Below, piece after piece: positions 1-58,006 of a stretch of DNA of 64,000 bases. The stretch covers positions 1 to 64,000 of IMG/VR virus record IMGVR_UViG_3300025326_000030; one strand, 5' to 3'. How positions within the stretch are numbered: the first letter of the stretch is position 1; every line of letters begins with the position of its first letter. The position numbers were made by a program, and so were the translations under genes. The notes beneath the pieces were generated by a model. It did not search any database. It worked only from the letters and a program-made list of their open reading frames with translations, and had not been told where the DNA came from. Source of the DNA: a virus.

Positions 1-28
1 CTCTTCCTTTATATAGGTGCTTTCACCC

Positions 29-49
29 CAAAAACCCCATTTAAGGGGT
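29..49 (-). terminator. Rho-independent terminator after the small membrane gene pair
   Basis: Read on the minus strand, an ACCCC / GGGGT stem with a six-base loop is followed by a short run of T. It lies about 30 bp past the stop of the gene at 82-360, so it would end the two-gene transcript that starts near 700. Confidence 0.55.
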
Positions 50-81
50 CTATTAGCTAGGGTATTACATGATTTGAAATA

Positions 82-360
82 CTAGTTTTCGCACATAGCA
101 GTCAAGTCAAGGGTTTGACCTGGCATGATAAAGGCTTTCTCTATATGCCCATCAGAACATTGGAATGTGATCTGTTGTGTCATGTTTGATGTGTTGATTG
201 CAGTGGCATGTGGCTTATTGGTTGCCATGATTGCCAGTGTAGCCACGAGTACAACAATCACTAGTACGATGAGCAACCTAGCCTTAGTGGACATTCCGGT
301 ATGGCTTACTACTGCATTCTTGCCACCCACTTTTCTGATTTTGATGGTTTGCGTATTCAT
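82..360 (-). CDS. Small membrane-anchored protein, paralogue of 453-668
   Basis: 92 residues, function unknown. A basic N-terminus of about 27 residues precedes one strong hydrophobic segment (about 28-46), then an outward-facing tail of about 45 residues containing two cysteines. The tail pattern (IT, then C, then DG, then a Gly/Thr stretch and C near the end) matches that of the gene at 453-668, so the two look like paralogues; a disulphide between the cysteines is likely. It is the downstream gene of a two-gene minus-strand unit and follows a hammerhead ribozyme, so its mRNA probably has a ribozyme-generated 5' end. Confidence 0.65.
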   Translation of the reverse strand: MNTQTIKIRKVGGKNAVVSHTGMSTKARLLIVLVIVVLVATLAIMATNKPHATAINTSNMTQQITFQCSDGHIEKAFIMPGQTLDLTAMCEN

Positions 361-389
361 GTGCCTATAACTCCCTTATTGGTGCTTTT

Positions 390-442
390 CCTGTTTCGTC
401 TTATAGAGACTCATCAGTCTACCCTTATAAGGTAGAGACAGG
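390..442 (-). ncRNA. Type III hammerhead ribozyme
   Basis: Read 5' to 3' on the minus strand: stem III CCTG (442-439); NUH cleavage triplet GUC with C at 437; stem I TCTACC (436-431) paired with GGTAGA (423-418); core CTGATGA (417-411); stem II GTCT (410-407) paired with AGAC (401-398); core GAAA (397-394); stem III CAGG (393-390). Every invariant core base is present, including G10.1-C11.1 and A15.1-U16.1. Stem III is open, so this is type III, with only four pairs plus the U-A. Loops TTATAAG and CTATA could form a TATA kissing contact. Cleavage is predicted between 437 and 436, cutting the bicistronic mRNA between the two membrane-protein genes. Confidence 0.88.
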
Positions 443-452
443 GGCATTACCC

Positions 453-668
453 CTAGTTGCAATACTGATTAACTTCAATAGTGCTGTGTGCTGCAATGGT
501 CACTTGTGCCATCGCACCATTCGCGCATGATACGTTGACTGTGATACTGTGCCCTGTGGTGTTTTCCACGTAGTGCGTGCTGTGCGTGGTCGCTAACATG
601 TACCCCACAAAGAGGATTACCGCGATCAGGATGATACAGAGTGCTAATTGTGTGTTTCTGGTAGTCAT
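453..668 (-). CDS. Small membrane-anchored protein, paralogue of 82-360
   Basis: 71 residues, function unknown. A single hydrophobic segment (about 8-26) is followed by a tail of about 45 residues with two cysteines spaced as in the protein at 82-360. It is the first gene after a good minus-strand promoter (TTGACT, 17 bp, TATGAT). The stop codon is only about 10 bases before the ribozyme, so self-cleavage would leave this message with a short 3' end carrying a 2',3'-cyclic phosphate. Confidence 0.65.
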   Translation of the reverse strand: MTTRNTQLALCIILIAVILFVGYMLATTHSTHYVENTTGHSITVNVSCANGAMAQVTIAAHSTIEVNQYCN

Positions 669-709: not shown

Positions 710-738
710 ATCATACTATATACGCCGCATATAGTCAA
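710..738 (-). promoter_or_regulatory. Sigma70-type promoter for the membrane pair and ribozyme
   Basis: On the minus strand a -35 TTGACT (738-733), a spacer of exactly 17 bp and a -10 TATGAT (715-710). Transcription would run leftward through 453-668, the hammerhead and 82-360 to the terminator at 29-49. The same AT-rich patch also reads as a weaker plus-strand promoter (TTGACT at 697-702 with TATATA at 718-723), so the region may be bidirectional. Confidence 0.65.
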
Positions 739-2843: not shown

Positions 2844-3443
2844 ATGAAACAACGAATTGTAATGCTTTTGGACGTAACGGGTTCAATGGGTGCCATTCGA
2901 GAGAATACTATTAAGGCATTCAATGAATATGTCAACGGCTTAAAAAAGGACAGCCCTAAGAAAACGACCTTTTCGCTCATTCTTTTCAGCAGTCTTTGTT
3001 TTGATACGCCGGTTGATAATGTGAAGGTTGCTGACATACCAGAACTTACCAAAGAAACTTATCGTCCCAATGGGTCTACCCCACTGTTGGATTCTGTCGG
3101 CAAGGCAGTTAAGCAAACCGAAAATAGCCTGAAGGAAAAAGAAGACATTCTATTAGTGGTCTTCACTGATGGAGAAGAAAATTCTTCAATGGAATTCTCA
3201 AAGTCTGCGGTTGCTGATTTGGTGAAACGCAAAACTGATGAGGGATGGACTTTCGTTTTTATGGGTGCAAATATGGACGCTTGGAACGAGGGCGAAAGCA
3301 TGGCAGTTCCCAAAGGTAATATTCAAGATTGGGAATCTCAGAATGTTGCTATAGCGTTTTCGAGTTTGAGCGTGGGAACTAAGCGCCATCTCTATCGTAC
3401 GGGTGGTCAATCTGCCAGTTCAAACTTCTGGGAAGAAGATTAG
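2844..3443 (+). CDS. Stand-alone von Willebrand factor A domain protein
   Basis: 199 residues, essentially one vWA fold. The metal-ion-dependent adhesion site is intact: DVTGS at residues 10-14 (Asp10, Thr12, Ser14), GSTPL with Thr79, and FTDGEE with Asp109. Family members bind a divalent metal and a protein partner. There is no signal peptide or membrane segment, so it acts in the cytoplasm. It stands just before the tRNA cluster with its own promoter. The window has a second vWA domain in the TROVE protein at 56077-57645. The partner of this one is unknown. Confidence 0.85.
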   Translation: MKQRIVMLLDVTGSMGAIRENTIKAFNEYVNGLKKDSPKKTTFSLILFSSLCFDTPVDNVKVADIPELTKETYRPNGSTPLLDSVGKAVKQTENSLKEKEDILLVVFTDGEENSSMEFSKSAVADLVKRKTDEGWTFVFMGANMDAWNEGESMAVPKGNIQDWESQNVAIAFSSLSVGTKRHLYRTGGQSASSNFWEED

Positions 3444-3445
3444 CT

Positions 3446-3451
3446 TATAAT
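3446..3451 (+). promoter_or_regulatory. -10 element for the tRNA cluster
   Basis: A perfect TATAAT ends seven bases before the first tRNA base (3458), so the transcription start would coincide with the mature 5' end. No good -35 is visible; the hexamer lies within the last codons and stop of the vWA gene. Confidence 0.45.
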
Positions 3452-3457
3452 ACTTAT

Positions 3458-3531
3458 GGAACTATAGCGCAATTGGCAGAGGCATCTTGCTCAAAACAAG
3501 AATGGTGTGGGTTCGAGTCCCACTAGTTCCA
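3458..3531 (+). tRNA. tRNA-Leu(CAA), type I variable loop
   Basis: Acceptor GGAACTA pairs with TAGTTCC and A follows. Anticodon stem TCTTG/CAAGA with loop CTCAAAA gives anticodon CAA. T-arm GTGGG/CCCAC with TTCGAGT. The variable region is only five bases, whereas bacterial tRNA-Leu normally has a long arm. No CCA is encoded. Confidence 0.8.
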
Positions 3532-3534
3532 TTA

Positions 3535-3619
3535 GGAAGATTGGCAGAGCGGTAATGCCGCGGTCTTGAAAACCGTTGACAACCGAGAGGTTGCGGGGGT
3601 TCGATCCCTCCATCTTCCG
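3535..3619 (+). tRNA. tRNA-Ser(UGA)
   Basis: Acceptor GGAAGAT/ATCTTCC with discriminator G. Anticodon loop CTTGAAA gives TGA. A long variable arm (AACC/GGTT) and a T-arm with TTCGATC make it a normal type II serine tRNA. It starts three bases after the previous tRNA. Confidence 0.9.
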
Positions 3620-3623
3620 TTGG

Positions 3624-3695
3624 TGACAAGTAGCATAACGGCAATGCGCTCGCCTGTTAAGCGAGATAATATTGGTTCGATTCCAATCTTGTCAG
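3624..3695 (+). tRNA. tRNA-Asn(GUU)
   Basis: Acceptor TGACAAG/CTTGTCA with discriminator G. Anticodon stem CTCGC/GCGAG with loop CTGTTAA gives GTT. T-arm ATTGG/CCAAT with TTCGATT. The anticodon loop is identical to that of the tRNA-mimic arm in the first Y RNA at 58105-58230. Confidence 0.9.
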
Positions 3696-3698
3696 TTG

Positions 3699-3783
3699 GG
3701 AAAGTTGGCTGAGTGGCAAAGCACCAGTTTGCTAAACTGTGGTCAATCGTTGTGTTGCATAGGTTCAATCCCTATACTTTCCG
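3699..3783 (+). tRNA. tRNA-Ser(GCU)
   Basis: Acceptor GGAAAGT/ACTTTCC with discriminator G. Stem CAGT/ACTG with loop TTGCTAA gives anticodon GCT. Long variable arm and a T-arm with TTCAATC. This is the second serine isoacceptor in the cluster, reading AGY codons. Confidence 0.88.
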
Positions 3784-3786
3784 CAT

Positions 3787-3865
3787 GTGTTAGAACCCCG
3801 ATTGGCAGGGGAGCAGTCTGTAAAACTGCGGCTTCGGCGTGTAGGTTCGAGTCCTACCTAACACA
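3787..3865 (+). tRNA. tRNA-Tyr(GUA)
   Basis: Acceptor GTGTTAG/CTAACAC with discriminator A. D-stem CCCC/GGGG. Stem GCAGT/ACTGC with loop CTGTAAA gives GTA. Short variable arm closed by a TTCG loop. T-arm GTAGG/CCTAC with TTCGAGT. Confidence 0.88.
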
Positions 3866-3869
3866 TTAT

Positions 3870-3944
3870 GCCACTGTAGCCCAATCTGGTAGAGGCGATG
3901 GTCTTAGGAACCATGCGGTGAAAGTTCGAGTCTTTCCAGTGGCA
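3870..3944 (+). tRNA. tRNA-Leu(UAG), type I variable loop
   Basis: Acceptor GCCACTG/CAGTGGC with discriminator A. Stem ATGGT/ACCAT with loop CTTAGGA gives anticodon TAG (reads CUA, not the amber codon). Variable region of five bases, then T-arm GAAAG/CTTTC with TTCGAGT. As with the first tRNA, a long variable arm is missing. Confidence 0.8.
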
Positions 3945-3995
3945 CTTCCTAGTTATAATCCTGAATCTGTGATATGATGCTTTTAGAGGTTAGTA

Positions 3996-32842: not shown

Positions 32843-33997
32843 ATGAAGATTTTTATACTTTCTGATAATCCATTCTCAAAATCCGCCTATGCCCAATCTG
32901 CTGTGGGACTGTCCCACAAATTGCTCCAATGGGGACATGATGTTTTGTACATGGGAGCATCCTATTATGGGACAGACCACGAGGTAAACGGGCTGAAGAT
33001 TTGTGGCAATAATAAGTTGCACGAAAATCGCCTCACGCTTTCTCCCCATCTGGAACGTTTTCAACCCGATATTATAGTAACCATTGCAGACCCGCTGAGA
33101 TTTCCCATTGAACTCTTTGCACGATACCGAGTTCCTTGGGTTTCTTTTTGCGCTACGGATACCGAACCCTTGCCAATTTCGCTAGAGCATGAATATCGTG
33201 GTGTCTATCGTGTATTAACCCCAAGCAAATTCATTCAGTCCCAACTGAAGAATGAACTGGATTGTAAGGCGGATTATTGTCCGCTCTGGTTAGATGCGGC
33301 TTACAAAGCCGGAGACAAAAAGTCTCTACGCGAGAAGTTGCATATTCCACAGGACGACTTTGTGGTTTGCATGGTGGCAGACAATAAGGAATATCCATCT
33401 CGTAAAAACTTTGAACCATTGCTCATTGCGTGGGCTTCGTTCATACATGAATATCCTAAAAGTAGGCTCATCCTTCATACCAATCTGGGAGCAGAGGCAG
33501 GTGGTGTAAATCTGTATCCACTGATTGAGATTTTCAAAATTCCGCAATATAACATTCTAGCGCCAAATCAAAATGCCTATCCACTGGAATTTGATAATGA
33601 GTACATGGCAAGTATGTATCAAGTTTCTGATGTATTCATTACCCCCTCTGGCGGCGAGGGTTTCTGTTCGCCTATTATTGAAGCATCTGCTTGTGGGATA
33701 CCCGTAATCGCCTCACACTTTACTGCGATGCGAGATCATCAGGTCGCCTGGTGGTTAGAAGATGGAGAAACCATTTGGAATCATCGCTATAACGCATTCC
33801 GTTATTTACCGACCAAGAAGGCAATTTATCAGAGGTTGCTTGATGCACTGGAAGCCAAGGCAAGTGGCACTATTGAGGCGAAGGGGCAAGAAGCCCTCGC
33901 GTATGCTCAAAATTTTGAGAAGGAGAAGGTCTTAGAGACTTACTGGAAACCTGTCTTTGAGGATATTCAAAAATGCCTAGAGGGAGGATTAGTATGA
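32843..33997 (+). CDS. Glycosyltransferase family 4-like (GT-B fold)
   Basis: 384 residues. It transfers sugar from a nucleotide donor; cytoplasmic. The C-terminal Rossmann half has the family signature: VFITPSGGEGFCSPIIEASACGIPVIAS (about residues 264-291), with the E-x(7)-E donor-binding pattern near GEGF...EASA. The N-terminal half has the acceptor-domain start KIFILSDNPFSKSAYAQS. It overlaps the next glycosyltransferase by four bases. Residues about 22-26 are encoded by a GTGGGACTGTCCCAC motif. Likely substrate: virion glycoprotein or host surface glycan. Confidence 0.85.
   Translation: MKIFILSDNPFSKSAYAQSAVGLSHKLLQWGHDVLYMGASYYGTDHEVNGLKICGNNKLHENRLTLSPHLERFQPDIIVTIADPLRFPIELFARYRVPWVSFCATDTEPLPISLEHEYRGVYRVLTPSKFIQSQLKNELDCKADYCPLWLDAAYKAGDKKSLREKLHIPQDDFVVCMVADNKEYPSRKNFEPLLIAWASFIHEYPKSRLILHTNLGAEAGGVNLYPLIEIFKIPQYNILAPNQNAYPLEFDNEYMASMYQVSDVFITPSGGEGFCSPIIEASACGIPVIASHFTAMRDHQVAWWLEDGETIWNHRYNAFRYLPTKKAIYQRLLDALEAKASGTIEAKGQEALAYAQNFEKEKVLETYWKPVFEDIQKCLEGGLV
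32903..32917. repeat. Dispersed near-palindrome, copy in the GT4 gene
   Basis: GTGGGACTGTCCCAC, a perfect 15-bp odd palindrome in coding sequence. Same family as 40362-40380. Confidence 0.75.
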
Positions 33998-34956
33998 ACA
34001 TCGTCTATATTGGAAAATCCACAGATGATGGGTCTGCTTATGGAATTATCAACCACAATTTTATCTTTTCCCTACTAAAGATGGGACACAACATTTTTCG
34101 CAATTGGCATAATCAGGGAATGGAGGTTCCCGATATTGCAATTGCTAACCAATATCCACCCCAACCTCTCAACTATTGGCATGAGTTCAATGTTTGTCTG
34201 ACCAATTGGGAATTTGCTACCCCTGAAGGGTATCCCCGGCGCAAAGTAGAGGCAATCAATCAGTATCATTTGCTTTGTGTCCCTTGCGAGTGGACCAAGG
34301 AACAGATCGGACCCGCGCTAGACATACCCATAGGGGTTATCCGCTATGGTGTGGATAGCAACCTCTACCATCCTTACAACTCCACCTATGAATTTGAAGG
34401 CGTACCACAGGATGCTATCAAAGTCCTGTGGGTAGGCGGAACTGATAAGCGACATGGTTTTGATATTGCCCTTGAGGTTTTGGATCGCCTACCAGATAAC
34501 TATTATCTGATTGCCAAACAAAGCACCCATTACCCAGAACATGAAGCAGAACACCCGCGCCTGAAGATTTTACGAGAAGAATTTAAGAATCTCGCCTTTC
34601 TCTATAATGCCTGTGATTTGTTTCTCCAATCGGGTAGAGGAGTTGGGTTTTGCTTGCCAGCATTAGAGGCATTGGCTTGTGGACTGCCTGTAGTAAGTAC
34701 GCCATTGCCACCCTTAAAAGAATTCCAACACTGTCAGATTCATTTTAGTTCTGGTGGTCAATGGGAACGAACACAACATAACCTTTTTGATGACTGCTCG
34801 CCTTCATGGTTCGAGCCTGATGTAGAAGACCTGTTGGGGACTGTCCTCAAATCACCCTTAGAAAAACAAAAGCCCACAAAGGAATTCGTGGACTTCTATT
34901 CTTGGGAAAGTGCAACTCAAAGATTATTGGACGTGATTACTGAGGCTAAGGGTTAG
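33994..34956 (+). CDS. Glycosyltransferase family 4-like (GT-B fold), second copy
   Basis: 320 residues. The start at 33994 overlaps the previous stop (ATGA) and has AGGGAGG upstream; a longer reading from 33973 lacks one. The C-terminal donor site reads DLFLQSGRGVGFCLPALEALACGLPVVST, matching the family pattern but with a shortened loop. The earlier GVDSNLYHPY and VGGTDKRHG blocks are typical of group 1 transferases. It overlaps the opposing lysin gene by 11 bases. It probably acts in sequence with the upstream transferase. Confidence 0.85.
   Translation: MNIVYIGKSTDDGSAYGIINHNFIFSLLKMGHNIFRNWHNQGMEVPDIAIANQYPPQPLNYWHEFNVCLTNWEFATPEGYPRRKVEAINQYHLLCVPCEWTKEQIGPALDIPIGVIRYGVDSNLYHPYNSTYEFEGVPQDAIKVLWVGGTDKRHGFDIALEVLDRLPDNYYLIAKQSTHYPEHEAEHPRLKILREEFKNLAFLYNACDLFLQSGRGVGFCLPALEALACGLPVVSTPLPPLKEFQHCQIHFSSGGQWERTQHNLFDDCSPSWFEPDVEDLLGTVLKSPLEKQKPTKEFVDFYSWESATQRLLDVITEAKG
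34834..34850. repeat. Dispersed near-palindrome, copy in the second GT4 gene
   Basis: TTGGGGACTGTCCTCAA in coding sequence; one mismatch from a perfect palindrome. The same 17-mer occurs at 54217-54233. Confidence 0.7.
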
Positions 34957-35680
34957 CTTCCACTACGGCAATATACTTGCCTGATTCGGGTTCGGGAATA
35001 AATGCGCGTTGCGCATCTTCCTTGGGGTAGATTTTGTTTTCACCACCACGACGATTGATTCCGCCTAGACCCCAATTGGGGTCATGGACGCGAACATCAT
35101 CTTCCATCCACTGCAAAACTACCAACCAATGCCATCCTCTGAACCCCTTATCCTGGACATGCTCTCTGTCTAATCCGCCATAATACATGAGCCAAATGGC
35201 GGGCAGCGGAATATCTGCAATATCTGAAACAACCATTGTCTTGAGGGGCAGTCCGATTTTCTTCCCATTCTTCACCAATTGCGCTCCATTGGTGTACCCC
35301 TTCTGACTGCGATAGGGTAAGTCATTAATATGGACTTTAATGCCATACCACGAGGCAAACATGCCTACACAAGCAGGTCCGCAGTCAGAAGGATCGCCAT
35401 TAGCGTCGGGGTCCCATTGAGAACGGTAGGGAGGCTCGGCAAGGACTTTAAAGCTCGTTACAATAGGTTCGGCAAGTTCCTTTACCACACTTTCGTGGAC
35501 ATATCCCCCCTCCACGAGAATCCACCACAAACCCTCAGTGGTTGCCAGAACATTAACTGCCAATACTTCAGTTCCCCTTTTTTTAATCCATCTCAAGAGG
35601 TTTTTGTTGGGCGGTTGGGTAAACTCTGGCGTACTACGTACTCGGACCTTATCGTAAAGGGTTTTGATAACACTGCTCAT
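34946..35680 (-). CDS. SH3b plus C39-type cysteine peptidase, probable lysin
   Basis: 244 residues. Residues about 8-70 form an SH3b-like domain (KVRVRSTP at the start, LWWILVEGGYVHES). A papain-like C39-type peptidase follows, with DCGPAC (Cys100), RGWHWLVVLQW (His184) and VHDPN (Asp200) as the catalytic triad order. In phages this pairing usually makes a peptidoglycan-cleaving endolysin. There is no signal peptide, so it would need a holin or act on the particle. It is the last gene of the minus-strand run and overlaps the glycosyltransferase at 35677 by four bases. Confidence 0.8.
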   Translation of the reverse strand: MSSVIKTLYDKVRVRSTPEFTQPPNKNLLRWIKKRGTEVLAVNVLATTEGLWWILVEGGYVHESVVKELAEPIVTSFKVLAEPPYRSQWDPDANGDPSDCGPACVGMFASWYGIKVHINDLPYRSQKGYTNGAQLVKNGKKIGLPLKTMVVSDIADIPLPAIWLMYYGGLDREHVQDKGFRGWHWLVVLQWMEDDVRVHDPNWGLGGINRRGGENKIYPKEDAQRAFIPEPESGKYIAVVEANP

Positions 35681-36366
35681 TTAAAAACTCCTTTGTCTTT
35701 CCACTTGGCGGCAAATTTTATACGGTTCTTAAGGTATTGATTATCTCCTCGATTCCAAGTCCCACCCCAGTCATGGCGAATACCCAAGGGGATTTGATGG
35801 ACTTCTAAACCTGCATTCCAGAATTGAGCGCACCAATCATCATCCTCTGCGCCGCCATAGTTGTAAGATTCGTCAATGGCAATATTATGGCGTTCTATAT
35901 CCTTGCGTCTGAAAAATTGGCAGAAACCGCTGACAATGGCAACTGGACCTGTAAAGTCTTCGGGCATAGGTTCGACGTTCCACTTGGTTGTGAGATGATG
36001 ACCGCCTTTTCCCGCTAACCCTATTTTATGGTCGCTTAATAGATAATTAGTGACTTGCTCTAACCACTGGTGGTCAAGCACTTCTACGTCTGTATCCAGA
36101 AAACCAAGTATCGGAGCGGAGGCGCGTTTCAACAATTCAATCCGTCCGCCTGCTACCCCAAGATTATCTGAGGATAACAGTACCTTTACTTGAGGAAAAT
36201 ATTTGTCTTGCACTTTCAGCAACCATTGGGAAGTTTGGTCCGTGCTGCAATTGTCCAGAATAAGCCAAGAGACTTGACTATTGGTGAGTGTGTGTGCCAT
36301 TGAAGTTAAACAGCGCATCGTGACGCCCAGTCGATTGTAAGTAAGAAAAAGTAATTCAGTTCTCAT
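35677..36366 (-). CDS. Glycosyltransferase family 2 (GT-A fold)
   Basis: 229 residues. The GT2 layout is plain: ELLFLTYNRL at the N-terminus, WLILDNCSTDQT for the nucleotide-binding loop, ILGFLDTDVEV with the DxD metal site, then GGAEDDDWCAQFW as the ED-type catalytic segment. Cytoplasmic, metal-dependent transfer from a nucleotide sugar. It overlaps the HNH gene upstream and the lysin gene downstream, so it is part of the same minus-strand unit. Confidence 0.88.
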   Translation of the reverse strand: MRTELLFLTYNRLGVTMRCLTSMAHTLTNSQVSWLILDNCSTDQTSQWLLKVQDKYFPQVKVLLSSDNLGVAGGRIELLKRASAPILGFLDTDVEVLDHQWLEQVTNYLLSDHKIGLAGKGGHHLTTKWNVEPMPEDFTGPVAIVSGFCQFFRRKDIERHNIAIDESYNYGGAEDDDWCAQFWNAGLEVHQIPLGIRHDWGGTWNRGDNQYLKNRIKFAAKWKDKGVFK

Positions 36367-36676
36367 TTTGCTCTTTCCGAATAAGGGATAAAAACTTTAG
36401 GTATGGCATATCACCTCTCCGAGTGTTGCAAGATGCACAAGCAATCACCAGATTATAGAGCCTATCTGTTCCGCCCCGACTTATAGGTTTCTTGTGGTCA
36501 AGTGTTAGGCGCTGATACTCATTCAAAATTCTCAGCGACCTATAATATTCTAAAGGCAATCCATCATCACGTAAACTTAGCTTCTTGCCACAGTAGTGAC
36601 ATTTCAGACCATCTCTTTTGATAAGTGCCCTTATTTTTTGCCGAAGCTCACTACCACCAATGGTGCTATTTGACAT
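36356..36676 (-). CDS. HNH endonuclease
   Basis: 106 residues. Zinc-finger HNH core: CHYCGKKLS, then TLDHKKPISRGG (catalytic His), NLVIACASCNTRRGD. The start at 36676 is chosen because GGAAG lies just upstream; a longer reading exists. Free-standing HNH genes in phages act in packaging, as homing endonucleases, or in DNA degradation. No intron boundary is visible around it. Confidence 0.85.
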   Translation of the reverse strand: MSNSTIGGSELRQKIRALIKRDGLKCHYCGKKLSLRDDGLPLEYYRSLRILNEYQRLTLDHKKPISRGGTDRLYNLVIACASCNTRRGDMPYLKFLSLIRKEQNEN

Positions 36677-36690
36677 TTTTCTTCCTTTCT

Positions 36691-36849
36691 TTAGGGTGTT
36701 TCCATCTCCCACAGAATATCCTGATCATAACCTTTGGGGTCTTTCTCTTCAAAATTAGTCTTGGTAAAGACGTAGACCGTCGCATCGGCACATTCAGCAT
36801 TTCCTAGGTCTACAGATATGATATAGGCTTTCTCTTGGTTTTCGGTCAT
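36691..36849 (-). CDS. Hypothetical small acidic protein
   Basis: 52 residues (starts MTENQEKAYIISVDLG, ends DILWEMETP). The ATG overlaps the stop of the virion protein at 36846 as ATGA, which supports co-translation. No family recognised. Confidence 0.55.
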   Translation of the reverse strand: MTENQEKAYIISVDLGNAECADATVYVFTKTNFEEKDPKGYDQDILWEMETP

Positions 36850-38168
36850 AGCAATTCTCTCCATACCATTGCTGAATATATATTCAAGTTAGACGCTCCC
36901 CCAATAGGCATAACTGCCAATACCATACTATCTGGAACACCCGCAATAGTTGATCCCAAAGCCAGTGCATTGATTATAGATTCTGTTAGAGAAGATTGCT
37001 CGGCGGCATATCCCGAATTGATAAGCGTACCACCAGATACAGTATTGGCAGTTGCGCCTGCGGCTCTCTGGCACGCGCTATTGGTGATGTCAGCATAATT
37101 GAAGGTGCCTGCTACGGTAGGATTCAACAACAATTGCCAGTGAAAATAATCATTGGCAGTAGTTCCCATGATGCTCATTGATAGATTCACGATGGTGGCA
37201 GATAGATGAGTTGATTTTAGTCTCAATCCCAAGCAAGCATATAATGTCCCCGCCACATTTGCATCAATGTGGGTGTTTCCATTGGAAGTGCTAAGAACAA
37301 GTCCATTGAATTCCTGTCCGCCTTCCGAGATAACGGTGCTACAAATATGAATGAGAGAAGAAGCGCCCCCCGTTCCATCATTGCTAATTTCATATCTTAA
37401 GGGAAGGTTCGGGGTACTCATATAAACAGTTGCCAGCGCATTGGCATTTAACATTTCATGGCAATAGACTAACATGCCATCTACCACAAAACCAAAACGA
37501 GCACGTCCAACACCAAGCCACTCGAAATCAATAACTAAAATCTGTGTCTTGGTGGTATCTAGGTCAATGCCACTTGTTCCTTCACCATCAAGGGTATCCA
37601 GATTCCAATTTGCCTGAGTAACAACAGTGTCTACGGGAGAACCACTGGTTTTAGTGCGCCGCCCTACACTGAGGACTGTCCCAGAAAGTTGGAAGAACAA
37701 TCCATTGTTTTCATCAAAATATCCTACACGGCGAGTGATACCCGAAGCACCCGCGCCAAGTACGCCAGTCATGAATATCAACTGTCCTTTTCCTGGTTGA
37801 TAATTGAATCGCCGCTTGGTCTGTCTCACGCGTTGCCCTGCGGTACTGGCTCCTACGCTCATAGTGGTAGCCGCCAGATCAACGCTATGCACCGATGAGG
37901 TTCCACTCCCAGAGGTTTCTGCGTCATCCCAAAAAAGCGGGGCGGCATCGTAGAGTTGCTTGCTATCGAACACTGTGTAAGGTGCCGAGGTTCGCAACCG
38001 ACCAAAGGGATCAATGATAGGACTGTCCCCATAGGTGATTCCTACTGGGATGACCGCCTCTAGGGTTACTGCCACTGGAACATCAAGTGATACAGAGAGA
38101 GGAGTATTATCAACAGAAACAGAAAGAGGAATGTTTTCAACAGTTACTACTTTTGCGGTCATATCCAA
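36846..38168 (-). CDS. Fibre-like virion structural protein
   Basis: 440 residues. The segment DPFGRLRTSAPYTVFDSKQLY (split here for length at YTV) followed by LFWDD and a beta-rich body is characteristic of a widespread phage structural protein of unknown detailed role. The first 45 residues are repetitive Val/Pro/Ser strands (IPLSVSVD, TPLSVSLD) that may build a shaft. Encoded on the minus strand amid modification genes, away from the main virion block. A GGAG-type ribosome-binding site precedes the ATG. Confidence 0.7.
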   Translation of the reverse strand: MDMTAKVVTVENIPLSVSVDNTPLSVSLDVPVAVTLEAVIPVGITYGDSPIIDPFGRLRTSAPYTVFDSKQLYDAAPLFWDDAETSGSGTSSVHSVDLAATTMSVGASTAGQRVRQTKRRFNYQPGKGQLIFMTGVLGAGASGITRRVGYFDENNGLFFQLSGTVLSVGRRTKTSGSPVDTVVTQANWNLDTLDGEGTSGIDLDTTKTQILVIDFEWLGVGRARFGFVVDGMLVYCHEMLNANALATVYMSTPNLPLRYEISNDGTGGASSLIHICSTVISEGGQEFNGLVLSTSNGNTHIDANVAGTLYACLGLRLKSTHLSATIVNLSMSIMGTTANDYFHWQLLLNPTVAGTFNYADITNSACQRAAGATANTVSGGTLINSGYAAEQSSLTESIINALALGSTIAGVPDSMVLAVMPIGGASNLNIYSAMVWRELL

Positions 38169-38242
38169 AACTTTCTTCTCCCTGTTGGTTCGGCGTATCT
38201 ACGATAGGGAAAGTAAAAGGAAAAGTTGATTTATTTTACCAC

Positions 38243-38267
38243 AAAAAGGCAGCGGCTACCCGCCGCC
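38243..38267 (-). terminator. Rho-independent terminator between 38274 and the fibre-like gene
   Basis: On the minus strand GGCGGCGG (38267-38260), loop GTAG, CCGCTGCC (38255-38248) with one G-T pair, then TTTTT. It separates the 38274-45482 gene run from 36846-38168. Confidence 0.7.
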
Positions 38268-38273
38268 GTCGTC

Positions 38274-38609
38274 CTATGCAAACCCCATATTTGAGCTAAT
38301 CAGCACCCACTTGTTTTTTTCATGCCGCTGGTAAATTTCGCCATGTAGCGGGCCGTAGAATTCCACTCGCCAATCGTGATCAGGGTCGCGCCGCGCCTTG
38401 TTCTCGAATTTGCGTAGCGTGGGTGGTTCGGGATCATCAGGTCTACCGATATACTCGAACACAGTCTCGCCATCTTTCTTGACTGTTACCTGCCCAAAGC
38501 CTACATCCAAAACGCGGCTGAGAGGACAGGTTAATTCAATATGGCTACAGTTTAGGCAACCATGATGAATCCGTTTAGGGTCTAGTGACAATTCTTTCTT
38601 CCAATTCAT
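38274..38609 (-). CDS. Hypothetical protein with CxxC-type site
   Basis: 111 residues. HHGCLNCSHIELTCPLS near the N-terminus carries three cysteines and two histidines, a probable zinc site; the rest is charged with a short beta end. No family recognised. Confidence 0.5.
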   Translation of the reverse strand: MNWKKELSLDPKRIHHGCLNCSHIELTCPLSRVLDVGFGQVTVKKDGETVFEYIGRPDDPEPPTLRKFENKARRDPDHDWRVEFYGPLHGEIYQRHEKNKWVLISSNMGFA

Positions 38610-38667
38610 TTCAGACTCCTTTTTACTTATGTGAGAGTACGTATAAGGGCACCACTACTGCGAACCA

Positions 38668-38859
38668 TTATTGATGCTCATCATAAGAATCAAGCTCGTC
38701 GTCGTAGTCGTTGTTGTCACGAATATTGATCGGATTGCCGCCGCCATCGAGTTCCCATTCGTGGTCACAATGAGGGCAGTTAAACCATACCAGCGAAGCC
38801 CTTTCAGATCGGCGAATATCAGCATTGCCACATACTGGACAGATTCCTTTTGCCATCAC
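38668..38859 (-). CDS. Small zinc-ribbon protein
   Basis: 63 residues. CPVCG (about residues 7-11) and CPHCDHEW (about 28-35) form two CxxC knuckles spaced as in a zinc ribbon; the tail is acidic. It overlaps the next upstream gene by four bases. It probably binds nucleic acid or a protein partner. Confidence 0.65.
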   Translation of the reverse strand: MMAKGICPVCGNADIRRSERASLVWFNCPHCDHEWELDGGGNPINIRDNNDYDDELDSYDEHQ

Positions 38860-39158
38860 CCATCTCCTTCCAACTCTTTCAGTAGCGCGGCGGCGGATTC
38901 TAAATCTACCAAGTCTAGAATTGCGCGCCCCGACCGAGTAATCACGGCTATAGAACCATAGCCTTCATCAAATGAAGTTGCATCATCAAGCGCAAACGGG
39001 CGCAATACCTCGCATACCCGCGCTATCAGGGCAGTGTGTTCATTCTGTAAAGCCTTCGTAAACTTAACCCATTTCTCATAATCATCAACTGACATGGCGA
39101 GTTCACCTTCAGCGCGTTGAATGGTTTTTATGGTTATAGGTTGCAGATATTTATTCAT
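38856..39158 (-). CDS. Hypothetical protein
   Basis: 100 residues, mostly helical with leucine and alanine repeats and an acidic end; no recognised domain. Overlaps the zinc-ribbon gene by four bases. Confidence 0.45.
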   Translation of the reverse strand: MNKYLQPITIKTIQRAEGELAMSVDDYEKWVKFTKALQNEHTALIARVCEVLRPFALDDATSFDEGYGSIAVITRSGRAILDLVDLESAAALLKELEGDG

Positions 39159-39178
39159 TTTTCTTTCCCTCCTATGGG

Positions 39179-39991
39179 TTATTCTTCTTTTTGCAAAACT
39201 ACCGAGACGGGTATTAGATGATACCCATTGTAATCCAGAGCAATATGTGGTGTGGGAACATCCTGTTCCTGACGAATCAGATCATCCGTCAACGTAAGGG
39301 TGATAAGCGTATCACGGGTATCCTGATCCACATGATAATCAGGTTCGTCCACCACAAAGCATTCAGAGGGGTCAATGATGAGTTCATAAAGGCTTTCAGG
39401 GGTGAACATATAGGTATTGGGTATCCATCCCGCCTTGTCGTTAATTTTGAATTCTGTGGAAAGGGCGATGATACCACCAGGTTTGAGGACCCGATACATC
39501 TCGCGCACTGCCTGTTGAATATCTTCTGGTTCTCCAAAATGCTCGATGGAACTACTGCTATAGATTGCGTCAAAGGTTTCATCACGAAACTTGAGATAGC
39601 GTCCATCCATTGCTTTCACCACAAGGCGTTTTTCTTCATAGGGATAAGGCGCATATTTGCCAGGATTCTCAGGCATGTCCTTGGGAGACCAAGCATTCCA
39701 TACTTCTTGGTCATAAATGTCAGTTGCTACCACTTGCTTGACGTGTTTGGTCAAGTAAAAGGAGGTGACTCCTGCGCCAGCACCAACCCCCAGAATGGTT
39801 GCCTTGCGGGTGAGTTTGTCATAGCGGTCAAAGGCTCGAATTGCCATCGTGTTTTCCCACAGCTTACGATACCGATAATCGCCTTGCACATGGGGGAAAA
39901 CATGCCGTTCGGCAAAATGGGGAAAGATTTCCTTAATGTCTTCTAAGAGGAAATCAAAGTCGGATAGATTACACACTTTGTTGAAATTCAT
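39179..39991 (-). CDS. Class I SAM-dependent methyltransferase
   Basis: 270 residues. The Rossmann motif I reads ATILGVGAGAGVTSFYLTKH, with the acidic residue after strand two (VVATDIY), the DAIYSSSSIEHFGEP segment for motif IV and VLKPGGIIALST for post-motif. This is the methyltransferase type 11 pattern. The start overlaps the GT2 gene, and the neighbourhood suggests glycan or surface methylation. Confidence 0.85.
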   Translation of the reverse strand: MNFNKVCNLSDFDFLLEDIKEIFPHFAERHVFPHVQGDYRYRKLWENTMAIRAFDRYDKLTRKATILGVGAGAGVTSFYLTKHVKQVVATDIYDQEVWNAWSPKDMPENPGKYAPYPYEEKRLVVKAMDGRYLKFRDETFDAIYSSSSIEHFGEPEDIQQAVREMYRVLKPGGIIALSTEFKINDKAGWIPNTYMFTPESLYELIIDPSECFVVDEPDYHVDQDTRDTLITLTLTDDLIRQEQDVPTPHIALDYNGYHLIPVSVVLQKEE

Positions 39992-40713
39992 GGAAGCTCT
40001 CTCTCAAATTTCACTACGCGCTGATTTTCCCAAATGGAACGATACAGCACACGATTCTTTTCAAATGCCCCAACCCCCTTATTGGTGGTTCCGGCATAGG
40101 TATGCTGGATGGGCAGACTGGCAACTTGCCAAACCTCATATCCAGCTTGGATTGCTACAGCACAGGCATTGTCATCCCCGCTGCCACAATATCCACCTTT
40201 ATCATACCTTATGTCCATAAAATCTGGGAGGTTAAACACAGGAGACCGGACTGCCATACAATATCCCGATACGCAATCTACTGCACCCGTAAGGTCTAGC
40301 GGCGCTTCATCTTTCCACCAGTCCGGTCTAACAAACCAACCATGTGCGCCTGTAATTCCTATTTGGGGACTGTCCCCAAAGGGAGCAAGAAGGCGATCCA
40401 ACCATGAGTCGTCCAGAAAGAGAACGTCACTATCAAGGAATATTATGAAGTCCATAGCTTTGGCAAAATATATAAGTTCCATTCGTCTGCGATGGGCATT
40501 CAGGGTAAACTGATAAAGATGAACATCCATTTTTGCCAATGGGTAAATGAATGGCAAGTCTGCCACATGTTCTTCAGTTCCGTCTCCCGATCCGTCATCC
40601 ATTACGAATGTCGTAATATTCTTGCGCTGCATCGTGGGATAGAGAGAGTGGAAGCAACGTTTTACCAAATCTAATCGATTGAAGGTCGAGATACATAATC
40701 CGATATTTACCAT
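39988..40713 (-). CDS. Glycosyltransferase family 2
   Basis: 241 residues. N-terminal NIGLCISTFNR, nucleotide-binding TTFVMDDGSGDGT, DxD metal site in FIIFLDSDVLFL, and GSGDDNACAV as the acceptor-side acidic motif. The start at 40713 (MVNIGLC) is preferred to an upstream ATG. A TTTGGGGACTGTCCCCAAA palindrome lies inside the coding region at 40362-40380. Confidence 0.85.
   Translation of the reverse strand: MVNIGLCISTFNRLDLVKRCFHSLYPTMQRKNITTFVMDDGSGDGTEEHVADLPFIYPLAKMDVHLYQFTLNAHRRRMELIYFAKAMDFIIFLDSDVLFLDDSWLDRLLAPFGDSPQIGITGAHGWFVRPDWWKDEAPLDLTGAVDCVSGYCMAVRSPVFNLPDFMDIRYDKGGYCGSGDDNACAVAIQAGYEVWQVASLPIQHTYAGTTNKGVGAFEKNRVLYRSIWENQRVVKFERELP
40362..40380. repeat. Dispersed near-palindrome, best copy (TTTGGGGACTGTCCCCAAA)
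   Basis: A perfect odd-length palindrome of 19 bp inside the GT2 gene at 39988. It is one of about twenty copies of a GGGACTGTCCC core between 8731 and 58673. Confidence 0.8.
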
Positions 40714-41246
40714 GCTTTTCTCAGCATTCTTAAACCCGCCCACGCGGACCCATAACTGTCATTGTTCCCATAGATACTGAGAATACCGCAATCCACAAAA
40801 CCATCAAGGTTATCGTCAATGGCTCTTTTAATGGCTTCATGGAAAGCATCATGGAAAATCAGAACTGCTTTGGGGGTACACAACGGACGACAAGCCTGAA
40901 TATCGGCGGTCACGCCTGCGCAAGAGTGATCGCCATCAATGAAGAAGAAGTCAAAGTTAACGCCAAGCGCGGGGATTACTTCACTACTGTTCCCAATATG
41001 CAATTCTGCCCATCGTAATCCCTCAATGGTTTTTCTTCCTTCATTTACGGGGTTAATATCCACACACCATAAATGTCCCTTTCCATTGGCAATCATAGCG
41101 GCATGAATAAGTTGAGCAGACCCCCCATAAAAGGAACCAATCTCCAAAAGGTTGGTAGGACGCAAACCCCGAACCAGTGCATAAAGCATTAGACGTTCTT
41201 CCCACAGAAGTTGGGCGGGTGTATTTAGCACATCATTGAGACTCAT
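40707..41246 (-). CDS. Class I SAM methyltransferase, CmcI/rhamnosyl O-methyltransferase-like
   Basis: 179 residues. Motif I LLEIGSFYGGSAQLIHAAM, WCVDINP after strand two, FFIDGDHSCAGVTADI for the metal or substrate site, and VLIFHDAFHEAI. This matches cephalosporin-hydroxylase (CmcI) and macrocin/rhamnosyl O-methyltransferase-like enzymes that act on sugars. A close paralogue is at 42323-42880. Confidence 0.82.
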   Translation of the reverse strand: MSLNDVLNTPAQLLWEERLMLYALVRGLRPTNLLEIGSFYGGSAQLIHAAMIANGKGHLWCVDINPVNEGRKTIEGLRWAELHIGNSSEVIPALGVNFDFFFIDGDHSCAGVTADIQACRPLCTPKAVLIFHDAFHEAIKRAIDDNLDGFVDCGILSIYGNNDSYGSAWAGLRMLRKAW

Positions 41247-41518
41247 GGTTCAGACTCTTTTCCGAGATATAGATATTGAAACCAAGATGCGCCCAAATCG
41301 TTTCGGTTGGTGTAACCTGTTAACAACACAACATCCCCATCTTGCAATTCCGAATCTGCGTTTTCTACTGTTCTTATAGGAATAAACCCATAATCTTCAG
41401 TCAAGAACGCATCATACATTAGATCATTATATAAGCAAGTGATTGCTCGAATAACGGATCGGCGCAAATTAGGATGTGCCTTGTAGAAATCGTAGACCTC
41501 TTTAAGTTTCTCGTTCAT
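41243..41518 (-). CDS. Hypothetical protein
   Basis: 91 residues, mixed charge with an N-terminal helix and a beta C-terminus (DGDVVLLTGYTNR). It overlaps both neighbours by four bases. No family recognised. Confidence 0.5.
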   Translation of the reverse strand: MNEKLKEVYDFYKAHPNLRRSVIRAITCLYNDLMYDAFLTEDYGFIPIRTVENADSELQDGDVVLLTGYTNRNDLGASWFQYLYLGKESEP

Positions 41519-41751
41519 TCTTGCAACTCCGCCAACTTATTTTTTAGATAGTTTATGTACTTTTCCATTTTGACCTTATCTTCTCGCATAGCATCTTGCT
41601 TCAACGCTTCTTGTATCACTATTTTCGTAGCCTCTTCTTTTCTCTGAACGCTATAGGCGTAAGCCTCCGTACTTCTTATGAACAGAAGGTTGTAATGTTC
41701 AAGTTGACCACGAATGATAAGTTCCGCAATTGCCTTGTTATCAACTTCCAT
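41515..41751 (-). CDS. Small coiled-coil protein, tandem paralogue of 41741-41983
   Basis: 78 residues: a short N-terminal block (VDNKAIAELIIRGQLEHYN) followed by a long charged coiled coil. The adjacent upstream gene has the same layout (TDNKTVLEFLIRGRIDDYG), so the pair arose by tandem duplication. Function unknown. Confidence 0.55.
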   Translation of the reverse strand: MEVDNKAIAELIIRGQLEHYNLLFIRSTEAYAYSVQRKEEATKIVIQEALKQDAMREDKVKMEKYINYLKNKLAELQE

Positions 41752-41983
41752 TTTCAGCTTCCCCCAGAGCGGCTTTCATTGCTTTTATTACTCCTTCAAG
41801 TACGGCATTTTCTTTTTCAAGGGATTCTTGTTTCTCGCGCTCACGAACTAGAAACTCAATGGCATCTTTTTCTAATCGTCGGCTCCGATCAAGTTCGTAC
41901 CTATTCCTCATAAGCATAATGCCGTAATCATCAATACGACCACGAATCAGGAATTCCAGAACCGTCTTGTTATCGGTTTCCAT
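41741..41983 (-). CDS. Small coiled-coil protein, tandem paralogue of 41515-41751
   Basis: 80 residues from ATG 41983, which has AGGAAG upstream. The same N-terminal block and Arg/Glu-rich coiled coil as its neighbour, diverged to about half identity by eye. It may form a hetero-oligomer with the other copy. Confidence 0.55.
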   Translation of the reverse strand: METDNKTVLEFLIRGRIDDYGIMLMRNRYELDRSRRLEKDAIEFLVREREKQESLEKENAVLEGVIKAMKAALGEAENGS

Positions 41984-42326
41984 TTTCAGCTTCCTTATAC
42001 TTGATAAATTGTTCACAAAGGAACAGTGCGGCGTCTTCTCTTCTCAACCCATAAAGATGAACCATGTCCTTAGTGGTTAATCGGTCGTTCTGTAGATACC
42101 ACAAGAGTTCCCATGCAGCATCTAGGCTCTGGGTATAATGAGGCAATAATCTATATTCTTTCCCATTATCAGTAACGTAAACATCCACTGTATATTCCCA
42201 ACTATGAACCGGAAAGCTAACTTTCAATCCAGATAATTCTGCAACTCTTATATCAATTTTTCTTTCCTGTCTAAGAAGTTCGATCTCTTTTTCTTCTGCC
42301 TCTTTGGTATAAATTTTCTGTCTCAT
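41970..42326 (-). CDS. Hypothetical protein, ABA-sandwich-like
   Basis: 118 residues from ATG 42326, which overlaps the methyltransferase stop. The C-terminal half (TQSLDAAWELLWYL then EDAALFLCEQFIKY) resembles the small phage ABA-sandwich proteins also seen at 48049 and 53802. The first 30 residues are a charged helix. Confidence 0.45.
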   Translation of the reverse strand: MRQKIYTKEAEEKEIELLRQERKIDIRVAELSGLKVSFPVHSWEYTVDVYVTDNGKEYRLLPHYTQSLDAAWELLWYLQNDRLTTKDMVHLYGLRREDAALFLCEQFIKYKEAENGNR

Positions 42327-42880
42327 TTCAGCCTCAACATTCTCAGACCACCCCAAGTGGTATTGGTATTCTTATCTACGGGTGCATGAACTGTCAAGAT
42401 TCCGCAATCTACCCCGAAGTAGTGCAATGAATCACTAATGGCACGCTTAACTTCTGGATTATGAGCATCATGGAAGAGCAGCACTGCCCCCAGTTCTGAC
42501 ATTGAAAGCGCACACTCAATATCTTGCTTCACCCCTCGATAGGAATGGTCGCCATCAATGAACACGAAGTCAAATAGAATATTAGCCTCAGTATCTCGTC
42601 GGCTTGCATACAAGTCCCAGCTACTACCCTTAATCAGGGCAACATCGGGTAAGGCGTCGACAAAAACTTCCAATTCTGGCTGCGGGTTAATATCTACGCA
42701 ATGCAGATTCCCGCAACCATTAGCAAGCATAGCTTGATGTATGATTCTGGCAGACCCGCCAAAGGCAGAACCAATTTCAAGGATATTTGTTGGTCGCAGT
42801 CCTCGAACCAATGCGTAGAGCATAATCTTCTCATCGGGTTCAAGTAAGGCGCGAATGTCTAAAATTTTATTTATATCCAT
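42323..42880 (-). CDS. Class I SAM methyltransferase, CmcI-like, paralogue of 40707-41246
   Basis: 185 residues. Shares MLYALVRGLRPTN, ILEIGSAFGGSARIIHQAM, CVDINP, FVFIDGDHSYRGVKQDI and LLFHDAHNPEVKRAI with the enzyme at 40707. The two probably methylate different positions of one glycan. About 1 kb of small genes separates the copies. Confidence 0.82.
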   Translation of the reverse strand: MDINKILDIRALLEPDEKIMLYALVRGLRPTNILEIGSAFGGSARIIHQAMLANGCGNLHCVDINPQPELEVFVDALPDVALIKGSSWDLYASRRDTEANILFDFVFIDGDHSYRGVKQDIECALSMSELGAVLLFHDAHNPEVKRAISDSLHYFGVDCGILTVHAPVDKNTNTTWGGLRMLRLK

Positions 42881-43212
42881 TTTGCCAAATCCTCTTTAAT
42901 CCTCGCTAGAGTTTCACCCGCCAGGCACTTTGTTTTAAGCCACTCAATAGCATCCTCAGATGTCCAAAAGCTATGCTCAACTGCTACCTTAAGAGCATCA
43001 AACAGTTCTTCGGTCTCTTCATTGGTAAGGCGCATAATCAATTTAATTTCGCCTTTGGTTTGTTCCCATCTGGAATAAATGGGATGACTAAAGACAAAAA
43101 CAGGAATGGCGAATGCGCTAGTAATTAGTTCAGTAACCTTCTTTTCAAATTCATTTCTGTCGAAACCTTCTGGTGGTTCCGGAAGTCCTATCTCCAAGAG
43201 AATGTCATTCAT
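42871..43212 (-). CDS. Hypothetical protein
   Basis: 113 residues from ATG 43212 (MNDILLEIG), overlapping the previous stop. Helical, with several Glu/Lys stretches and no recognised family. An alternative longer start at 43269 overlaps the membrane gene more and has no ribosome-binding site. Confidence 0.45.
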   Translation of the reverse strand: MNDILLEIGLPEPPEGFDRNEFEKKVTELITSAFAIPVFVFSHPIYSRWEQTKGEIKLIMRLTNEETEELFDALKVAVEHSFWTSEDAIEWLKTKCLAGETLARIKEDLAKWI

Positions 43213-43390
43213 AGCGGCTTTTTCTACTATTGGTATAGTAATTGTTGAGAAAACCCCATGACCAAACAACTATCAATGCCCACCAAGGGCGATCTGATGC
43301 TACCAAAAACGCTGGTATGCCATAAGCAATTGCGAGATTGAAGACCAATACTGACACAATTATCATTATTGCTTGTGTTTTATCTATCAT
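43205..43390 (-). CDS. Small membrane protein
   Basis: 61 residues with two hydrophobic segments (about 7-27 and 34-49) and a Tyr/Asn/Lys-rich end. It overlaps both neighbours by a few bases. Holin-like size and layout, but nothing diagnostic. Confidence 0.5.
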   Translation of the reverse strand: MIDKTQAIMIIVSVLVFNLAIAYGIPAFLVASDRPWWALIVVWSWGFLNNYYTNSRKSRYE

Positions 43391-43584
43391 AACCCCATAA
43401 ATCCTTCCGACTTAACTTCAAACAAGATATTTTGCAACACTGATTTTTTCATCTCTCTATTAAGTGGACAAAGCATCCTATGAGTATAGCGCAACCACAG
43501 GGGAAGTTGCCCACGCTTCTGAATGTCTGCCAGTAAATACCACCGATGAATTGCCGCGAGCAATTCTGGGGTGAATGCCATCAT
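43387..43584 (-). CDS. Hypothetical small protein
   Basis: 65 residues, with aromatic and basic residues and no domain recognised. It overlaps 43205-43390 and 43581-43859 by four bases each. Confidence 0.45.
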   Translation of the reverse strand: MMAFTPELLAAIHRWYLLADIQKRGQLPLWLRYTHRMLCPLNREMKKSVLQNILFEVKSEGFMGL

Positions 43585-43859
43585 TTATCTTCTCCGTTCA
43601 TAATGGAGTTAACGACATCCTTAGCAATCTCTTGGGCAAGACTTTGCAATGCTGATACTGCTGCTAGTATTGCCCTTATCTGATTTTCTCGGTTGTTGGA
43701 ATCATATCCATCTGGTACGCCATACATCTTAATGAAATTCTTCAAGAATAACTTACCCTTAGCAGTCATTTCTATAGGTCTTTCCCCTTTGGAAAAGATA
43801 ATATATCCGAGAGCGTATGCCTGTAAGAGTAATTCTACTTGTCGTTTCTTATTCATCAT
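43581..43859 (-). CDS. Hypothetical protein
   Basis: 92 residues from ATG 43859, which has GGAG upstream. Helical; the KGKLFLKNFIKMYGV and EIAKDVVNSIMN segments look like short packing helices. No family recognised. Confidence 0.45.
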   Translation of the reverse strand: MMNKKRQVELLLQAYALGYIIFSKGERPIEMTAKGKLFLKNFIKMYGVPDGYDSNNRENQIRAILAAVSALQSLAQEIAKDVVNSIMNGEDK

Positions 43860-44116
43860 ACCAACTCCAACAAAACCAAGCACAATTCCTGCATTTCTTT
43901 GAGGGTTAAGTCTGTTCGTATAGCGCCAATTCCACCACGATAAACCAGGAGTTTAGCTTTTTGTTCGGTGCTGTATTTAGAGATTTCAATATATCCAGTT
44001 CCTTCTGTATCGCGTCGATAATAAAGGCTTCCATCAGGGACATATCCACTACCATGACAAAACCCGCAAAAAGATATGGGTTCTCCTTCCTCTGGGTGAC
44101 ATTTAGGACACTGCAT
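43856..44116 (-). CDS. Small protein with DnaJ-type zinc-finger motifs
   Basis: 86 residues from ATG 44116, preceded by AGGAAAA. CPKCHPEEGEP and CGFCHGSGYV are CxxCxGxG-like repeats as in the DnaJ cysteine-rich domain, with only two units instead of four. The rest is a small beta domain. Possible co-chaperone-like or RNA-binding role. Confidence 0.6.
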   Translation of the reverse strand: MQCPKCHPEEGEPISFCGFCHGSGYVPDGSLYYRRDTEGTGYIEISKYSTEQKAKLLVYRGGIGAIRTDLTLKEMQELCLVLLELV

Positions 44117-44375
44117 TTTTCCTAATCCATTCCTCTCCATCAATAAAGATACTTAACAACCATTCGTACTCATGCAAAGATTCATCTAATTCCCATACAC
44201 AGATAGCATCCTCTGGTTCAATCCCTGAAATTTCGAGCGCGTAACTACGAGCAACCTCAAGGTCCAAAAAGGCTTCACTCCAAGAAGCACCCATCACAAT
44301 ATCATCAACTAAATACGCTGTGCGACCATGCTTCTGGATTGCCGCCTCTGTCTGAAATTCCTTTGCGGTTAACAT
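44103..44375 (-). CDS. Hypothetical protein
   Basis: 90 residues, acidic, alternating helix and strand. Overlaps both neighbours. No family recognised. Confidence 0.45.
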   Translation of the reverse strand: MLTAKEFQTEAAIQKHGRTAYLVDDIVMGASWSEAFLDLEVARSYALEISGIEPEDAICVWELDESLHEYEWLLSIFIDGEEWIRKNAVS

Positions 44376-45175
44376 TAGAACATCTTCTCCTGTTTAGTTT
44401 CTCTTAATTCTTGCGGGTATTCTTCGCGCCAGTGGGCGAGGACAGTCCCCAGAGAGGGCTTCAGATTACCCTTGAAAAAAACTTTGGTCTTATGCCCATC
44501 TAGCACGGATAATACATTTCGAAGGTGTTGTGGATCAGGTTGGTAATATGTATTTCCCCGACTGGCAGCACCAACCACTGCCCATTGGATACAATCAGAT
44601 GCTTTGCGGTTTAGGACGATACTCATATCCCATGAAAATGGTTCAATAGAGAGCCAGCGGACCGCTACGGGCAATTTCGCCAAAATGTCCAAGATATAAT
44701 CCAGAAATTTCTCTTGTTTGTGCAAGGTTAATTTTTTACCATTAATCTCGCTTGGGGGTACTGATGCGCCAAGCCACACATTTGGCGGAAACTTGAAATC
44801 TCTATATCTTAAAGGGTTTTTGGTCAAGAAAAGAAAAGTGTGCCAATGAGCGCGTTCGCACATATCTAAGATTTGCTGAATTTGCCATTCGGGCACCCAC
44901 CAACCAAATACATCAGCCATTGAACCATTAAAGATACGAGCAGGCTCCTTAACCTTTAAAGGTTCTTCTATCCGATTAGGATGCCAGTAATGATGAGCAA
45001 ACCCCTGTGGGTAAAAAGGAGAAGCCACGCCTTCTGCAATATCTTCTGCATAACAATTGGCAGACTGACCATCAGGCATAGTCCAATGACAATCATGCTG
45101 ACAACCTGCCACAATGTTATGCGTATAATGAACGTATTCAATTCCACGTCCCTTATTGGTCTGTTGTTTCTGCAT
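44375..45175 (-). CDS. DUF5131 (phage Gp37/Gp68) family protein
   Basis: 266 residues from ATG 45175, with GGGGGGAAAG upstream. The N-terminus has the signature HNIVAGCQHDCHW then ANCYAED, three cysteines that in this family are thought to hold an iron-sulphur cluster (radical-SAM-like). WIFNGSMADVFG-like and WLGASVPPSE blocks follow (here RIFNGSMADVFG, VWLGASVPP). The enzyme's activity is not established. It is common in phages and mobile elements. Confidence 0.82.
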   Translation of the reverse strand: MQKQQTNKGRGIEYVHYTHNIVAGCQHDCHWTMPDGQSANCYAEDIAEGVASPFYPQGFAHHYWHPNRIEEPLKVKEPARIFNGSMADVFGWWVPEWQIQQILDMCERAHWHTFLFLTKNPLRYRDFKFPPNVWLGASVPPSEINGKKLTLHKQEKFLDYILDILAKLPVAVRWLSIEPFSWDMSIVLNRKASDCIQWAVVGAASRGNTYYQPDPQHLRNVLSVLDGHKTKVFFKGNLKPSLGTVLAHWREEYPQELRETKQEKMF

Positions 45176-57645: not shown

Positions 57646-57742
57646 GTTAACCTTCCTTTTGGGGTATAATCAAACCGAACCTTAGATAATTGCCTTATTC
57701 TCTATTGTGACGCCACTGTAAGGCGTTCTCTTGATGATTGCG

Positions 57743-57843: not shown

Positions 57844-57854
57844 TGATAATACCG

Positions 57855-57990: not shown

Positions 57991-58006
57991 TTCTTAAATA
58001 ATTGCG

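Follow-up and report, generated by a model that had tools for sequence, protein, structure and literature searches.

A type III hammerhead ribozyme and upstream hairpin in a two-gene phage operon gap: a putative mRNA splitter with protected ends

A type III hammerhead ribozyme lies on the minus strand between two genes for small predicted membrane proteins in an IMG/VR virus record (IMGVR_UViG_3300025326_000030), and its sequence and setting suggest that it probably acts as a built-in mRNA splitter within a two-gene phage operon, with both resulting ends protected. The window analyzed here comprises the first 64,000 nucleotides of this record. The ribozyme itself is of a kind already known and represents a new example of the phage type III hammerhead. 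Sequence comparisons further indicate that a GC-rich hairpin usually sits directly before phage type III hammerheads, abutting stem III and located just after the stop codon of the upstream gene; the window carries a compact form of this layout. The ribozyme, the hairpin and the arrangement of the genes can be read from the nucleotide sequence, as can the repeated occurrence of this arrangement in other phages.

The ribozyme and its gene pair

The elements of the locus, listed in the direction of transcription, are:
710–738, minus strand: promoter-like TTGACT-17-TATGAT preceding the gene pair (10 of 12 matches, weak candidate)
453–668, minus strand: upstream gene, 71-aa predicted single-pass membrane protein (ORF, hydropathy)
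439–455, minus strand: hairpin UAGGGGU-AAU-GCCCCUG, overlapping stem III (minimum-free-energy fold, overlap count)
390–442, minus strand: type III hammerhead ribozyme (RF00008 and independent model R1)
442–438/394–390, minus strand: stem III, five pairs, open
439–437, minus strand: GUC cleavage triplet (NUH)
437, minus strand: C17
436–437, minus strand: predicted cleavage site, between 437 (C17) and 436 (from the hammerhead consensus)
436–431/423–418, minus strand: stem I, six pairs, loop-closed
417–411, minus strand: core CUGAUGA
410–407/401–398, minus strand: stem II, four pairs, loop-closed
397–395, minus strand: GAA (GAAA, 397–394)
371–377, minus strand: Shine-Dalgarno-like AAGGGAG before the start codon at 360 (read from the sequence)
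82–360, minus strand: downstream gene for a predicted single-pass membrane protein of 92 aa, possibly paralogous to the upstream gene (ORF, BLASTP, shuffles)
28–54, minus strand: ACCCC-UUAAAU-GGGGU followed by a U-rich stretch, a candidate weak terminator past the end of the downstream gene (read from the sequence)

Positions 442–390 of the minus strand read CCUGU-C-UCUACC-UUAUAAG-GGUAGA-CUGAUGA-GUCU-CUAUA-AGAC-GAA-ACAGG, with the consensus letter at every core position and the triplet GUC, as the preliminary description of this DNA had stated. Rfam model RF00008 scores the element at 49.2 bits (E 8.7e-8 over 4227 families), just over the curated gathering score of 48.5, and the window shares core, three stems, GUC triplet and topology with the type III members of that family. 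Covariance model R1, built from 43 phage type III hammerheads excluding the window sequence, yields 40.5 bits (E 1.5e-8) with no other match in the 64 kb up to E 10; its alignment was pre-filtered for paired stems I and II, so pair counts there are no independent evidence for these two stems. A search of the whole 64,752-base record for a second hammerhead found none. By sequence, 442–390 is a genuine canonical type III hammerhead rather than a chance match, with the coordinates and strand first proposed for it, and the RNA between the two membrane-protein genes is very probably self-cutting. The predicted cleavage position agrees with the one given earlier. Stems I (up to eight pairs with a triloop) and II have the lengths initially described, whereas stem III had been counted as four pairs and comprises five.

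The loops of the window hammerhead are unlike the usual UGUGUG/AAAA pair of the phage set. A kissing contact between them had been suggested, and a UAUA/UAUA pairing of four Watson-Crick pairs is indeed possible from the sequence, but it is no family feature in our sample: loop-loop matches of at least four pairs occur in 6% of 67 phage type III hammerheads, compared with 1.5% when the loops are re-dealt. Loop kissing as a family rule was consequently discarded as unsupported in this sample.

The ribozyme resides in the 92-nt gap of the codirectional pair 668–453 and 360–82 (minus strand). Each flanking protein contains one strong hydrophobic segment (19-residue mean hydropathy of 3.0 and 3.1), in line with the membrane proteins described at first, and two aligned cysteines are present in the short C-terminal part of both. 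Aligned with each other by BLASTP, the proteins show 23% identity (E 3e-5, single pair), and 7 of 5000 ectodomain-only shuffles match the observed score; the paralogy that had been asserted is likely, if weakly supported. Family searches with the upstream 71-aa protein returned weak matches only. Promoter-like sites are no commoner in the region than in its shuffles, and a terminator scan made no call at 28–54 (minus strand). The contig encodes a terminase large subunit, a tape measure protein, a RecA/UvsX-like recombinase and a DnaB-like helicase, and is assigned to a tailed phage because of these families. Close relatives were found neither by protein scans (both flanking genes, terminase, portal; exact 8-residue patterns, which reach close relatives only) nor by the IMG/VR ribozyme pattern scan. 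Among 27 window proteins scanned, none had a Pfam match to an RNA ligase or RtcB as a partner for hammerhead ends.

Other regions of the window harbor a von Willebrand factor A-domain protein gene (2844–3945, plus strand) directly before a six-tRNA gene cluster, and a series of glycosyltransferase-like and methyltransferase genes (32843–46528). Two minus-strand regions, 56077–57645 and 57690–58340, hold a Ro60/TROVE protein gene (PF05731, E 3e-19) together with a YrlA-like stretch upstream of it at 58186–58139, which scores 30.5 bits, below the cutoff of 69, and four spaced copies of a CUUCUUC-AUGGCGCUAUUAU-like repeat. This ensemble looks like an array of tRNA-like Y RNAs next to a phage Ro60; Ro60 homologues were detected in 391 phage records.

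A hairpin upstream of type III hammerheads

Type III hammerheads were gathered from IMG/VR using patterns that fix only core and stem III letters, filtered for paired stems and cleared of near duplicates; both resulting sets are samples, not censuses, and over-represent the stem III letters that the patterns fix. The hairpin idea arose from the first set (67 hammerheads). A second scan, with the stem III pattern changed to CCGUC/ACGG, then gave 42 further hammerheads dissimilar to the first set. A strong hairpin running up to stem III is present in 69% of the 67 matches listed in the first set; dinucleotide shuffles give 17%, and no single shuffle exceeds 28%. The mean folding z of these 67 is −2.74; both neighboring windows (−40 to −80 and −80 to −120) are shuffle-like, as is the downstream side. 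In the second set, the hairpin is found in 83% of the 42 matches listed versus 20% in shuffles (mean z −2.97), with adjacent windows at 20% and 17% versus about 11%, far under the hairpin signal. A scan of bacterial genome contigs yielded chance matches for the most part, and no more than about 15 type III hammerheads, many in Patescibacteria, passed the stem filter; the hairpin occurs in 77% of 13 further type III hammerheads from such contigs, where the next window out is also raised.

The hairpin arms have a GC content of 72% versus 44% for their loci. Hairpins start at a median of 7–8 nt after the upstream stop codon and type III ribozymes at about 21–30 nt after it, so that the hairpin fills the room in between. 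The window has this layout as well, with hairpin 455–439 following the upstream stop in an overlapping form, a feature that was missed in the preliminary description together with its involvement of the stop codon and of stem III. No mention of such an upstream hairpin was found in the open-access papers searched.

In Patescibacteria and similar contigs (L246, L247, L265, L267, L282, L299 and L325), TGTTCTTT or GATCTTTGA was noticed by eye within about 10 nt after type III hammerheads. These motifs resemble the boxA antitermination element, and the hammerheads often occur in several copies per contig. In some contigs (L108, L040, L090 and L325), three to five hammerheads lie within a few kilobases, each in front of a different gene.

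Type I hammerheads of these collections lack such a hairpin (13% versus 9.5% in shuffles). Like the window kind, they occupy gaps between codirectional genes, with the next start about 20 nt away, and the distance to the next ORF start is about 20–25 nt for both types; the type I ribozyme, however, begins right at the upstream stop codon (median −1 nt). After cleavage, the closed stem III of a type I hammerhead remains on the upstream message beside the cut, and the ribozyme body stays on the upstream rather than the downstream message, whereas with type III the upstream message retains only a few bare nucleotides. The extra hairpin of type III may therefore represent a 3′ end structure that type I already has: both layouts would end the upstream message in a hairpin, because the cleaved type I product keeps its own stem III hairpin.

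Orientation was evaluated for 109 type III hammerheads, leaving out 44 inside naive ORF calls and 13 between non-codirectional ORFs. Among the matches listed, and with a simple ORF caller, 43 hammerheads between codirectional ORFs (32 + 11) are in sense and none is antisense. Codirectional gaps dominate phage genomes, and hence the strand agreement is the informative part of this count. The location that the preliminary description had implied to be special is accordingly neither new nor rare, since sense-strand hammerheads in short phage gene gaps are also described in an earlier study (PMC3088659).

Operon splitting and alternative readings

In the model that we infer, a transcript spanning both genes would be cut between 437 and 436. 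Hammerhead self-cleavage generates a 2′,3′-cyclic phosphate and a 5′-OH. The upstream message would thus end in hairpin 455–439 and a short tail with the 2′,3′-cyclic phosphate, an end that would shield it from 3′ exonucleases. The downstream message would start about 75 nt ahead of its start codon, with a 5′-OH and with stems I and II folded, and this end may shield it from 5′-end-dependent decay. The notion of a split operon put forward in the preliminary description holds up on the level of sequence.

The sequence directly 5′ of stem III on the minus strand, UAGGGGUAAUGCCCCUGUC, has as its best fold the seven-pair hairpin 455–439. Its first three bases, in the 5′ arm, are the UAG stop codon of the upstream gene, and its 3′ arm uses up four of the five bases that form the 5′ strand of stem III. 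When stems I and II are retained, a folding model that leaves out tertiary contacts and coaxial stacking gives −16.8 kcal/mol for the hairpin state and −12.7 kcal/mol for the ribozyme state; hairpin and stem III are thus predicted to compete, the energies showing the competition and not its outcome. As the hairpin fold surpasses the ribozyme fold in this model, cleavage in the window could be slow. Across 88 scored hairpins, 33 are flush with stem III without gap or overlap and 19 share one nucleotide with it (0–1 nt in 52), whereas eight, including the window, share at least 3 nt. In this subclass, hairpin and stem III are mutually exclusive, and the overlap could reflect compaction, a means of making cleavage irreversible, or a switch.

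The hairpin might instead assist folding of an active hammerhead, by insulating it from upstream sequence or by stacking coaxially on a short stem III, and have no part in 3′ end protection. The predominance of flush hairpins is what stacking needs, and stem III has only 4–6 pairs in many phage type III hammerheads. Yet open-ended type I hammerheads, whose open stem is equally exposed, lack a flanking hairpin, and in the overlap subclass, window included, the hairpin disrupts the very stem it would have to support, leaving this reading rather unlikely compared with protection of the 3′ end.

The overlap itself allows for a translation-gated switch, in which a ribosome at the UAG would occupy the 5′ arm of the hairpin and free CCUGU, such that the message is cut only when gene 1 is translated. 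This is suggested by the stop codon at the very start of the hairpin, by the 4 nt common to hairpin and stem III and by the greater predicted stability of the hairpin fold; the seven other hammerheads with at least 3 nt shared point the same way, one of which (L110) has a UAA stop that also extends into the hairpin. In most phage modules, nevertheless, the hairpin lies next to stem III and does not interfere with it, so the overlap may be no more than compaction, and that a terminating ribosome would free exactly these bases is an estimate from typical footprints. We consider such gating a long shot; if true, translation of gene 1 would control operon splitting, and a small subclass of phage hammerheads would be conditional likewise.

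A hammerhead that is decayed or inactive and persists as a simple structural RNA could account for the predicted minimum-energy fold of the ribozyme alone, which is not the hammerhead (−14.2 versus −12.4 kcal/mol, in a model without tertiary contacts). Energy models of this type often misplace hammerheads, and decay should have left changes in the core, whereas all core positions and the three stems are intact, rendering decay very improbable. Finally, type III hammerheads are a typical feature of viroid-like RNAs and of plant retrozymes, but a circular-RNA or retrozyme-like element would need two hammerheads or a circular unit, and the single copy of this record, inside a gene pair of a tailed phage with terminase and tape measure genes, leaves that origin a negligible chance. 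We hence retain the operon splitter with protected ends as the preferred reading.

Relation to known phage hammerheads

In 2011, Perreault et al. (PMC3088659) reported hammerheads in the intergenic gaps of phages and proposed that they process long phage transcripts into shorter mRNAs. Their study describes prophage hammerheads at the flanks of genes or gene blocks as well as cleavage by tandem phage hammerheads, both in vitro and in E. coli, and its supporting text lists a hammerhead of phage PaP3 among the active variants. The window shares with these examples the sense strand and the short gap between codirectional phage genes; the upstream hairpin, however, is not mentioned in the text passages of PMC3088659 on hairpins, terminators and start codons.

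In PaP3, R1 identifies a type III hammerhead at 45468–45418 (minus strand) with 53 bits, and scores of 51–56 bits were obtained in five phages of the PaP3/LUZ24 type (Bruynoghevirus). The PaP3 stretch has blastn matches in 72 Pseudomonas phage records. When five phages are aligned, the CUGAUGA and GAAAC letters are identical and other positions vary. These hammerheads resemble that of the window in their type III layout just before a gene. They differ from it in a 10.1/11.1 pair that is not the consensus G-C, in the next gene's start codon, which touches or sits in stem III (L467, L471–L475), and in the lack of an annotated gene end just upstream. Rfam reports nothing above cutoff for type III in PaP3 and Bcep176, whereas R1 finds the PaP3 element. 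RF00008 under-calls phage type III hammerheads, with L110, L040, L123 and L467 (PaP3) below cutoff or absent although found by R1. A blastn search for a named phage with two strong modules found none, and a Rhizobium phage match was rejected as a type III module, as it reads as a type I hammerhead. The PaP3/LUZ24-type Pseudomonas phages offer a laboratory-tractable hammerhead system.

Collectively, the recurrent order of stop codon, hairpin, type III ribozyme and start codon provides a testable answer to the question of what hammerheads do in phages, their proposed role being to make defined, protected mRNA ends, and the comparison further singles out a subclass whose hairpin and ribozyme would be mutually exclusive.
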